Shown here: positions 31,594-34,963 of the stretch, one piece after another | Layout of the letters: every line of letters begins with the position of its first letter | Position numbering within the stretch: position 1 is the first letter of the stretch | NCBI GenBank assembly: GCA_021228405.1 | Contig: JAJQRF010000004.1 | Location: 124,001-188,000, forward strand | Length of the DNA stretch: 64,000 nucleotides | Reading direction: 5' to 3' | DNA from: Pyrinomonadaceae bacterium | GTDB taxonomy: Bacteria > Acidobacteriota > Blastocatellia > Pyrinomonadales > Pyrinomonadaceae | The notes under the pieces: generated by a model | Seen by the model: only the letters and a program-made list of their open reading frames with translations | Told to the model about the DNA's origin: nothing | Databases searched by the model: none | Translations under genes and position numbers: made by a program

Positions 31594-33291
31594 ATGACTT
31601 TTTCAAAACTACGTTCGTTCGTTCTTTTTACTTTTCTGTTTTTGCTCTTTTCGATTTCGGCATTTGCACAAAATACAACTAAAAACTTCAATCGTCCGCG
31701 CACGTTTGATGCCCAACATTACATTTTGCGAATCAGCTTTGACCGCGCAAATAAAACCGTTTTCGGCGATACGACGGTTCAGTTGAAACCGCTTTCCGAC
31801 AACTTTAATACCGTCCAACTCGATGCGGTTGGGTTAAAATTTGAATCGGTAAAGCTTGAGCCGGATAATCAGGATTTGAGTTATAAAACCGATAAAGATT
31901 CGGTTATCGTGACGCTTGATAAGGCATATTCAAAAGACGATCTCATCTCGATTCGTTTCAAATATTCGGCAACACCGAAGAAAGGAATTTATTTTGTCGA
32001 TAAAAAAGTCGAAGACGGCGAAACAGTTAATGATGCCCAAATCTGGACCCAAGGCGAAGCGCAGGAGTCGCGTCATTGGTTTCCGTCATTCGATTCACCG
32101 AACGATAAAGCCACGACCGAAGAATTAATCACGGTTGAAAAAGGGTTAACGGTTATCGGGAACGGTGAATTTCTAGGAAAAGAAGTAACGGCAGACGGAA
32201 AAGAAACTCATCATTATAAAATGCCTGTTCCGCATTCGATCTATCTGACTTCGTTCATCGCCGGAAATTTTGCCAAACAAACCGATTCTTATAAGAATAT
32301 TCCGTTGACCTATTATGTTTATCCGGGCAGAGAGTCGATCATTCCGCAGGCTTACGGCAAGACGAAAGATATGTTCCGCGTTTTTGAGGAATTAACCAAA
32401 GTCGATTTTCCCTACAATAAATACGACCAGACGATCGTTGCCAATTTCAATTTCGGCGGAATGGAAAACATCACCGCGACGACAATGGCTGATACCGAAA
32501 TTATGATGGCAGGTTTTGCTTTTGCGAAAGACGGTGTGGAAGACCTCGTTTCGCACGAGCTCGCGCATTCTTGGTTCGGTAATCTCGTAACTTGCAAAAA
32601 TTGGTCGGAACTTTGGCTGAATGAAGGCTTTGCAACGTTTATGGAAGCGGCTTACCGCGAAAAAATGTATGGTCGCGCAAATTATTTGCAGAAGATCAAT
32701 TCCGATGCCCTGCAATTCATAACCAGCGACGCAGTCAGCCGAAATCGTCACGCTTTATTTAACACCAAAGCCGATCCGAACGACGACGGGCTTTTCGACA
32801 CGACCACTTATCAAAAAGGCGGCGCGGTCATTCACATTCTGCGCGAAACCGTCGGCGATGAAGCCTTTTGGAAAGCAATCAATATTTATCTCAATCGCCA
32901 CAAATTCGATAATGTCGAAACTCCCGATCTACAAAAAGCGATGGAAGAAGCGTCGGGGCAAAATCTGGGTTGGTTTTTCAAACAATGGGTTTACGGCGCA
33001 GGAAGCCCAAAACTCAACGTTAAACCGATTTACAATGCAAAAACGAAAACGCTGAATTTAACTGTCGATCAACTTCAAAAACTAGATAACATCACGCCTT
33101 CAGCATTTATTTTGCCGATGGAAATCGAATTAAAAACCGCAAAAGGCTTAAAGAAGGAAGACATTAAAATCATGAAACGGCAGGAAATCATCTCGCTTAA
33201 AGTAGATTCAAAACCGAATTCGATCAAATTTGATCCGAATGATAAAATCCCGCTGAAAACGGTTAAAATTCAGCCGATCATCGCAAATTAA
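31594..33291 (+). CDS. Exported M1-family aminopeptidase
   Basis: 565 residues with a signal peptide ending SAFAQ. N-terminal beta domain, then the substrate-binding GGMEN (variant of GAMEN) near residue 288 and the zinc motif HELAH at 321-325 with the third ligand Glu344 in NEGFATF, exactly 18 residues further. The length lacks the large C-terminal HEAT-like domain of PepN, as in LTA4-hydrolase-like and bacterial exported forms. It removes N-terminal residues from peptides. Followed by a terminator. Confidence 0.93.
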   Translation: MTFSKLRSFVLFTFLFLLFSISAFAQNTTKNFNRPRTFDAQHYILRISFDRANKTVFGDTTVQLKPLSDNFNTVQLDAVGLKFESVKLEPDNQDLSYKTDKDSVIVTLDKAYSKDDLISIRFKYSATPKKGIYFVDKKVEDGETVNDAQIWTQGEAQESRHWFPSFDSPNDKATTEELITVEKGLTVIGNGEFLGKEVTADGKETHHYKMPVPHSIYLTSFIAGNFAKQTDSYKNIPLTYYVYPGRESIIPQAYGKTKDMFRVFEELTKVDFPYNKYDQTIVANFNFGGMENITATTMADTEIMMAGFAFAKDGVEDLVSHELAHSWFGNLVTCKNWSELWLNEGFATFMEAAYREKMYGRANYLQKINSDALQFITSDAVSRNRHALFNTKADPNDDGLFDTTTYQKGGAVIHILRETVGDEAFWKAINIYLNRHKFDNVETPDLQKAMEEASGQNLGWFFKQWVYGAGSPKLNVKPIYNAKTKTLNLTVDQLQKLDNITPSAFILPMEIELKTAKGLKKEDIKIMKRQEIISLKVDSKPNSIKFDPNDKIPLKTVKIQPIIAN

Positions 33292-33310
33292 AAGCGAATT
33301 TAAATCCAAA

Positions 33311-33343
33311 AAAAGTTCCGTGACGATTCACGGAACTTTTTTC
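33311..33343. terminator. Bidirectional terminator
   Basis: 13-bp stem 33311-33323 with 33328-33340 (core GTTCCGTGA), T-rich on both strands. It ends the M1 gene and, on the minus strand, any read-through from the riboswitch. Confidence 0.88.
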
Positions 33344-33374
33344 TTTGAGAAGACCGGATGTCTGCTTGATGTTG

Positions 33375-33431
33375 AAAAAGCAGCGCGCGAAGCACACACA
33401 AAATCGCGCCAAATCGGCAAAACTATCTGCT
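33375..33431 (-). terminator. Possible intrinsic terminator downstream of the riboswitch
   Basis: On the minus strand, GCGCGA (33409-33404) pairs with TCGCGC (33390-33385), and outside it AGCAG (33431-33427) pairs with CTGCT (33383-33379), directly followed by TTTT. It fits an expression-platform terminator placed 15-70 bases after the aptamer. Confidence 0.5.
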
Positions 33432-33445
33432 GTTACTTCTTTGCC

Positions 33446-33597
33446 ACACCTACGAGGTTAGCTGACGGGCTAGGAACGAAAGATTATCCCCGCGTTTATT
33501 AATCATCAACGCTTCGCCCCGTGTTTTATGAAAAATGAAAGAAAATCATAAAACTTTGGTTCCCCCGCGTTATTTCCATGGAAATAACTTCGGTGAT
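33446..33597 (-). promoter_or_regulatory. Cyclic di-AMP riboswitch (ydaO/yuaA type), orphan
   Basis: The minus strand carries the conserved ydaO blocks in order: CACCGAA at the P1 5' side (33594 down), a perfect inner hairpin GTTATTTC/GAAATAAC, GGGGGAACC, an AT-rich hairpin, GGGGCGAAGC, a GCGTT...AACGC stem, GGGATAATCTTTCG, CCCGTCAGCTAACCTCGTAGG and the closing GGTG pairing CACC. These match the aptamer as known from the tte and B. subtilis leaders. It has a good promoter 20-45 bases upstream, but no minus-strand gene follows before two terminators. The nearest downstream minus-strand gene begins at 29362. Confidence 0.88.
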
Positions 33598-33616
33598 CAA
33601 CTTTTCAACAAAAGAA

Positions 33617-33646
33617 AATATACCACACGAAAACGTGTATTTTCAA
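33617..33646 (-). promoter_or_regulatory. Promoter of the riboswitch transcript
   Basis: On the minus strand TTGAAA (33646-33641) and TATATT (33622-33617) with an 18-base spacer. Transcription would start near 33610, just before the aptamer. Confidence 0.65.
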
Positions 33647-33674: not shown

Positions 33675-34220
33675 TTAAGCCGCGGGAAATAAATGATAAA
33701 GCATCAGATAAACGATTACGCCTGTCGCCGAAACGTATAACCAGATCGGATAAGCAAACTTTACAATTCTGCGATGTTTATCAAATTGTTCGGTGACTGC
33801 AAAATACATCGAACGTAAAACGAGCGGCAAAACCACGAGCGAAAGTCCGATGTGCGAAATCAAAATAAAGAAATAAACATAACGGACAAAACCGACACCG
33901 TTAAATTTATTTGCCGGGTTTGTTAAGTGATAAGTTACATAACAAACCAGAAATAAACCGCCCAGAATAAAGGCTGTCGTCATTGCTTTGCGGTGCAGAT
34001 CGATCTTGTTTTGTTTGATGAAGATCAAAGCGGCGATCAAAACGAAAGTGGTCAGCGTGTTGATTATTCCGATTGTGTGCGACAAAGGTTTCGTTGCACC
34101 GCCGACATCGAGTTTATTCGGGAAAGCAAGCAAAATTGCCACTACGACCGGCACGGCGACCGAGAGCGTGTTTATCACCAACATCGACTTTTTTTCCTGC
34201 TGAAGTATTTCCGTAGCCAT
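33675..34220 (-). CDS. DUF420 (YozB/CtaM-like) membrane protein
   Basis: 181 residues from the ATG at 34220, 2 bases after the stop of the oxidase subunit III gene. Five hydrophobic helices with conserved His in LSHTIGI, DLHRKAM, VTYHLTNP, LISHIGLS and KHRRIVKF. DUF420 proteins accompany haem-copper oxidase genes in many bacteria and are linked to oxidase assembly. Last gene of the ctaB-coxC-DUF420 operon. Confidence 0.85.
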   Translation of the reverse strand: MATEILQQEKKSMLVINTLSVAVPVVVAILLAFPNKLDVGGATKPLSHTIGIINTLTTFVLIAALIFIKQNKIDLHRKAMTTAFILGGLFLVCYVTYHLTNPANKFNGVGFVRYVYFFILISHIGLSLVVLPLVLRSMYFAVTEQFDKHRRIVKFAYPIWLYVSATGVIVYLMLYHLFPAA

Positions 34221-34222
34221 AT

Positions 34223-34963
34223 TTATTTGAAAAATCCGAGTAAGACAAATATCAGCAACCAAAGCCCGCCCATAAAATGCCAATACCAGCCGACAACTTT
34301 CGCTAAACTGTTGCGCTTTTTGATGAATTCTTCCGAAGCGGCAGGAATCCGGCTTTTCAGGACGATTGCGCCGAGTCCGGCAATTCCGCCGAGCACGTGA
34401 ACCGCGTGGAGTATCGTCAAAATATAATAAAATCCTGCGTAAGGATTACTTTCGAGATAAACTCCGCGTCTGGAAAGCTGCATCCACGAAAGAATCTGAG
34501 AAGCAATGAAAGCCGCGCCGAGAACGGTTGTCGCCATCAGCCATTTATTCGCTTTCGACTGATCGTTTGCATAAAGCGATTTTTCGGCGAAAACGTAAGT
34601 AAAACTACTGAAAATTATTAACGCGGTGCTGACAAAAATCTGAAACGGAAGATCGAACGGCTTCCATTCGTTCACACCTGTCGAAGCGATAAAAATATAT
34701 GAACCGAGCAAACCGCTGAAGGTCATAAAAACTACGACCAGCAAAAAGCCCATCAAAACACGTGATGTATCAGGCATATATTGTTTGAAGCCGATATGGT
34801 CGAGCGGATTGCGATTGTTTCCGCCGTCATCGTTTCCATTGTTTCCGCCTCCGCCTCCGCCGCGATTTTTGTTGCCGTTATTGGGACCGCCGCCGGAAAA
34901 TGTCGGCGGGCGTTTGCGCTTTTTCTTTTCTTCAGCGGCTGTTTCGATTGTTCCGATTTGCAT
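34223..34963 (-). CDS. Haem-copper oxidase subunit III family protein
   Basis: 246 residues. The first 60 are charged and then a Gly/Asn low-complexity linker, unusual for the family. Five helices follow, with the subunit III hallmarks LTILHAVHVLGGI and VGWYWHFMGGLWLLIF. Subunits I and II are not in the window. It is 10 bases after ctaB and 2 bases before DUF420, so an oxidase-assembly operon is clear. Confidence 0.87.
   Translation of the reverse strand: MQIGTIETAAEEKKKRKRPPTFSGGGPNNGNKNRGGGGGGNNGNDDGGNNRNPLDHIGFKQYMPDTSRVLMGFLLVVVFMTFSGLLGSYIFIASTGVNEWKPFDLPFQIFVSTALIIFSSFTYVFAEKSLYANDQSKANKWLMATTVLGAAFIASQILSWMQLSRRGVYLESNPYAGFYYILTILHAVHVLGGIAGLGAIVLKSRIPAASEEFIKKRNSLAKVVGWYWHFMGGLWLLIFVLLGFFK

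Follow-up and report, generated by a model that had tools for sequence, protein, structure and literature searches.

A complete c-di-AMP aptamer lies between two convergent genes

We analyzed a stretch of 64,000 nucleotides, referred to here as the window. On its minus strand, a cytochrome oxidase operon encoding a UbiA-type synthase, COX3 and DUF420 runs towards a convergent M1 peptidase gene, and between the two lies a c-di-AMP riboswitch aptamer of the ydaO/yuaA family (Table 1). Searching with Rfam covariance models, we found that RF00379 matches 33605-33432 (-) with 79.3 bits (E 8.7e-17; gathering score, 38) and that all 134 model positions (1-134) are covered. This is the sole Rfam match at gathering threshold in the window. 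A preliminary description of this DNA had named a complete ydaO-type aptamer here from its sequence blocks; the blocks are present, and a score far above threshold places the element firmly in the family. To our knowledge, members of RF00379 are leaders of protein genes. In the window, no minus-strand gene follows the aptamer, just as had been described, so that the controlled same-strand gene of a cis-regulatory leader is absent; such a gene is found in 9/63 related loci, and it is not the same gene each time. The genome encodes a diadenylate cyclase (PF02457, E 9.8e-43) and Hfq (PF17209, E 1.8e-24).

The promoter noted earlier is present at 33646-33617 (TTGAAA and TATATT separated by 18 bases, with a TG-extended -10). 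A second strong terminator, formerly placed at 33311-33343, is confirmed as a hairpin at 33340-33311 with a U-run to about 33304; the terminator region (33304-33340) is a near-perfect inverted repeat with A and T runs on its two sides, and it may also act as terminator for the convergent M1 gene. Taking the 5' end GUUGAAAA from the -10 spacing, the RNA probably spans 33609-33304 (-), about 306 nt, and the full RNA folds far better than its shuffled counterparts (z-score -3.8). The terminator-like hairpin reported behind the aptamer does exist (33409-33385; H1) but is weak in the relatives that could be scored, with a mean of -5.6 kcal/mol. The unit extends further than had been described: the apparent filler at 33431-33343 is a conserved 3' module. 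The order is promoter, aptamer, a conserved noncoding 3' module of about 90 nt, and terminator.

Table 1. Features of the locus, with coordinates in the window
Feature	Position	Strand	Evidence
M1 peptidase gene, convergent, not a fixed neighbor	31594..33291	+	PF01433; convergent in 35/63 loci
Predicted stand-alone transcript, ~306 nt, 5' end GUUGAAAA	33304..33609	-	Promoter spacing, terminator, conservation edges, fold z-score
Intrinsic terminator T2 and U-run	33304..33340	-	13/13 pairs with changes on both sides; 98.7% of cells paired
3' module and terminator, covariance model R1 match	33305..33430	-	126.5 bits; window copy belongs to training set
UCUUCUCAAAG, nearly invariant, partly paired; candidate interaction site	33343..33353	-	Conservation
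Hairpin H2, AGAC-AUCCG-GUCU	33351..33363	-	95.8% of cells paired, nearly invariant
Hairpin H3, CUGCUU[UUUCAACAUC]AAGCAG, loop with UUUUCAAC	33362..33383	-	4/4 pairs changed on both sides
Hairpin H1, GCGCGA...UCGCGC, first terminator-like hairpin of the preliminary description; weak	33385..33409	-	4/4 modeled pairs changed on both sides
Hairpin H0 (GCC/GGC)	33408..33418	-	3/3 pairs changed on both sides
c-di-AMP (ydaO/yuaA) riboswitch aptamer	33432..33605	-	RF00379, 79.3 bits, full length
AAAGAAG, 3' strand of presumed aptamer pseudoknot	33436..33442	-	Partner AUCUUU at 33484-33479
5'-terminal GUUGAAAA, complementary to H3 loop	33602..33609	-	Sequence complementarity
-10 hexamer TATATT, TG-extended	33617..33622	-	TAnnnT in 60/63, TGn in 55/63 loci
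-35 hexamer TTGAAA	33641..33646	-	TTG at equivalent place in 59/63 homologous loci
DUF420 gene of the cytochrome oxidase operon, just upstream	33675..34223	-	PF04238, E 1.2e-42

The unit is conserved in ten genera and is independent of the downstream gene

Among 119 genomes of the Pyrinomonadaceae (Acidobacteriota), 101 carry a c-di-AMP aptamer, many of them more than one. Analyzing the neighbors of 150 aptamer loci, and searching with both flanking proteins, we found the stand-alone unit in 66 species from 10 genera, always as a single copy, so that the study bacterium shares it with at least 65 related species. The 66 comprise 63 loci of the DUF420 type, two divergent copies in genus g6 and one copy (G013) at a contig end. 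At the 63 loci, the aptamer comes after the DUF420 gene and has a conserved 3' flank (seen in 62, with 1 at a contig edge). None of the 85 other family aptamers that were examined has the 3' module motifs; most of the 29 that were scored have a strong terminator close behind, and a same-strand gene usually follows.

The second aptamer of the same genome is of this conventional kind (locus L032, G000:C2:35393-35530): a terminator hairpin is followed by an ORF of 73 codons that has a GGAGG site, and then by the gene for an ABC solute-binding protein. Elsewhere in the family, conventional aptamers precede a gene for an FAD-NAD(P)-binding protein (L083; by similar N termini, probably also L028 and L125), DUF2490 genes (L015 and L031) and genes for proteins of ~680 aa without a Pfam match (L066 and L094).

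A covariance model of the 3' module, built without aptamer sequence, found one site per genome, each adjoining the 3' end of an aptamer; most of these sites are within or close to the training set, and the g6 copies are outside it. It was this model that found the divergent g6 units (L193 and L194, in small genomes), which occupy a different locus away from DUF420. Among 396 Acidobacteriota, the model gave no convincing site away from an aptamer. Two marginal matches that we checked, in G397 and at one G103 locus, lack an adjacent aptamer and were set aside as chance-like. No DNA match was found on plasmids.

Mean pairwise identity rises from 0.32 upstream to 0.44 in the promoter and 0.64 in the aptamer, is 0.57 over the 3' module and falls to 0.22 past the terminator; on either side of the RNA, conservation is down to background. 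Promoter spacing is 17 to 18 in 57/63 loci, and a shuffled control was 2.4 standard deviations lower in promoter score.

What lies past the RNA, in contrast, varies: the M1 gene at 35 of the 63 loci, another convergent gene at 17, a same-strand gene at 9 and an unassignable neighbor at 2. We conclude that the unit is independent of the downstream gene. We looked for relatives in which the RNA runs into a minus-strand gene and, in most, it does not; where a same-strand gene is present (9/63), the genes differ from each other and lie beyond the terminator wherever a terminator was scored. Three of these loci (L034, L071 and L079) have a same-strand gene of 370 to 373 codons that starts 248 to 264 nt past the aptamer, and in L034 it encodes a D-Ala-D-Ala ligase. 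Cell-wall control has been linked to c-di-AMP in other organisms.

Could the RNA be an antisense regulator of the convergent M1 mRNA, or a relic riboswitch whose gene was lost, as had both been suggested? Only the local geometry in the window favors such readings. However, with the downstream gene varying as it does, neither M1 antisense action nor loss of a target gene is likely. At 28/63 loci (2 of them contig ends), no convergent M1 neighbor was found while the RNA was retained, and in the window the RNA ends before it reaches the M1 stop codon, with about 12 nt between them. Loss of a regulated gene is at odds with the same gene-less layout being kept, with promoter, 3' module and terminator conserved, in 66 species from 10 genera, and with the covariation described below. 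We therefore rejected antisense action on the grounds of neighbor turnover and gene loss on the grounds of conservation, and consider either extremely improbable. The remaining earlier suggestion, that the RNA acts by itself, draws support from this conserved, gene-less unit. From sequence, it is near certain that this is a real, conserved gene for a stand-alone RNA that contains a c-di-AMP aptamer.

The upstream neighbor is constant

DUF420 is the upstream neighbor in 62/63 loci, at a median distance of 53 nt, and a terminator-like hairpin between it and the RNA is absent in 59/60 loci. This arrangement, together with the varying downstream gene, raises the possibility of a cis-acting 3' untranslated region: the oxidase operon mRNA would read through DUF420 and end at the terminator of the RNA, and c-di-AMP would alter its stability or 3' end. 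The promoter conserved between DUF420 and the aptamer argues against this, as do the two g6 genomes with the unit at another locus, and the synteny is equally well explained by vertical inheritance and a shared terminator. We regard the 3' untranslated region as an unlikely explanation, albeit one to be taken seriously. The constant DUF420 neighbor also counts against a purely trans role, which would not require it.

The 3' module is a covarying structure without a conserved open reading frame

No Rfam 15 sRNA family reaches its gathering score on 33290-33440, and we dismissed a known sRNA family as the source of the 3' module. A small peptide was likewise dismissed: no ORF is conserved among the 63 loci, where the longest closed ORF has a median of 16 aa, and a closed ATG ORF of 8 aa is absent in 51/63.

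The hairpins of the module covary. Changes on both sides occur in 26/28 pairs and 92.7% of cells pair in the model-fitted alignment, which is biased towards its own structure. In controls, 0/500 shuffles scored as high, and slid controls were far lower. Less biased are the terminator counts on the plain alignment and the exchange of the H3 arms, which in relatives are either UCUGCUU/AAGCAGA or the unrelated UUUGAUUU/AAAUCAAA, while the loop UUUUCAAC is nearly constant. H3 was also recovered without the covariance model. Besides structure, the module keeps a sequence motif: UCUUCUCAAAG is found within two mismatches in 61/62 stand-alone loci versus 3/88 others.

The H3 loop UUUUCAAC and the 5' end of the same RNA are complementary in sequence. 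This complement is present within one mismatch in 56/62 stand-alone loci versus 3/88 other loci, one of the three (L086) being itself stand-alone. Because the two elements are almost invariant, covariation does not speak to their pairing; it is their co-occurrence that suggests it.

The stable fold (z-score -3.8) and the proposed closure of the 5' end are what one would expect of an abundant structural RNA, and the absence of a conserved target gene would suit a reservoir, or sponge, that buffers free c-di-AMP, for which merRNA offers a precedent (PMC3627812). Yet conservation of the 3' module comes close to that of the aptamer and extends to a sequence motif as well as to structure, and a sink would have no need of this module. 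A reservoir seems to us distinctly unlikely. A base-pairing or protein-binding sRNA would fit the conserved 3' module best.

A possible trans-acting RNA that responds to c-di-AMP

We propose that the locus is a stand-alone small RNA gene that responds to c-di-AMP and acts in trans through its 3' module, a reading to which we give an even chance as a whole; trans action itself could, in our estimate, about equally well hold or fail. From its own promoter, the gene would yield an RNA of ~306 nt, with the c-di-AMP aptamer in its 5' part and a 3' module (hairpins H0, H1, H3 and H2 and the stretch UCUUCUCAAAG) closed by the intrinsic terminator. Pairing of the 5'-terminal GUUGAAAA with the H3 loop would give the RNA a closed form in which its 5' end is protected. 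The 3' module would then contact an mRNA or a protein, and binding of c-di-AMP would alter how well it makes this contact.

Dependence of the contact on c-di-AMP is proposed because the strand AAAGAAG may either join the ligand-bound pseudoknot or pair with the 3' module at its CUUC segments. The alternative partners are the CUUC of H1, with which AAAGAAG pairs in the unconstrained fold, and the CUUCU of the conserved stretch, with which RNAalifold pairs AGAAG. If the aptamer is imposed on the fold and its pseudoknot strand set aside, AAAGAAG is unavailable to its CUUC partners by construction. Covariation between AAAGAAG and the loop strand was noticed by eye and is uncounted. Our hypothesis is that c-di-AMP could in this way change access to the 3' module. 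This switch is the weak step of the proposal, because pairing of AAAGAAG with the downstream region in the stand-alone set hardly beats shuffled sequence (-9.7 versus -8.6, sd 2.5). The computed accessibility of UCUUCUCAAAG was unchanged between free and aptamer-enforced folds. In 10 genomes, exact 11-mer complements of UCUUCUCAAAG showed no excess over a reversed-pattern control, and we dropped base-pairing targets defined by exact complement.

The unconstrained fold, in which AAAGAAG binds the CUUC of H1, would also be compatible with attenuation, in which c-di-AMP favors termination at H1 and, in its absence, the noncoding 3' module is made as the product, as in SreA or Rli55. H1 does resemble the terminators of the family's ordinary riboswitches, many of which share a GUG..CUUC element. 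However, H1, which occupies the usual terminator position, has a poor U-tract and the mean of -5.6 kcal/mol given above, compared with -15.9 in the conventional leaders of the Pyrinomonadaceae. Because of this weakness in most scored copies, we set attenuation at H1 aside as a minority view that is quite improbable.

Returning to trans action by the whole RNA, an apparent orphan riboswitch is here probably a dedicated, signal-responsive small RNA. That it is moreover the first trans-acting small RNA under c-di-AMP control, encoded by a dedicated, family-conserved gene and with a 3' module that reaches targets depending on c-di-AMP, is a tentative claim, somewhat short of an even chance. If it is true, RNA alone links a second messenger to the regulation of distant genes. 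Other "orphan" riboswitch matches may likewise represent independent genes.

Comparison with known systems

We know of few riboswitch aptamers in RNAs without a downstream gene, and in the open-access literature we found no report of a c-di-AMP case. With the ydaO/yuaA leaders of RF00379, the RNA shares a complete aptamer that carries the family's conserved blocks; it differs in that the aptamer is joined to a conserved noncoding 3' module and a terminator, without a regulated gene.

As a whole, the RNA most resembles merRNA, on the one hand, and SreA, Rli55 and EutX, on the other. In Bdellovibrio bacteriovorus, merRNA is a c-di-GMP riboswitch within a noncoding RNA without an ORF, for which a reservoir role has been proposed and which is not found outside Bdellovibrio (PMC3627812). 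The Pyrinomonadaceae RNA is likewise a noncoding RNA that lacks a conserved ORF and contains a cyclic-dinucleotide aptamer, but this aptamer is of the c-di-AMP class, and the RNA extends over 10 genera with a covarying 3' module. Trans-acting riboswitches have been called rare (PMC7266159); SreA, Rli55 and EutX are riboswitch-controlled, trans-acting RNAs (reviewed in PMC8383071). The likeness to these is an aptamer joined to an RNA that acts, in our case by inference, beyond its own downstream gene. They have other ligands (S-adenosylmethionine [SAM] and B12) and are made by riboswitch termination or processing, whereas the Pyrinomonadaceae RNA has just a weak hairpin at the equivalent place. 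As a family-wide, covarying example, it offers a clean system for how a second messenger acts through a free RNA.
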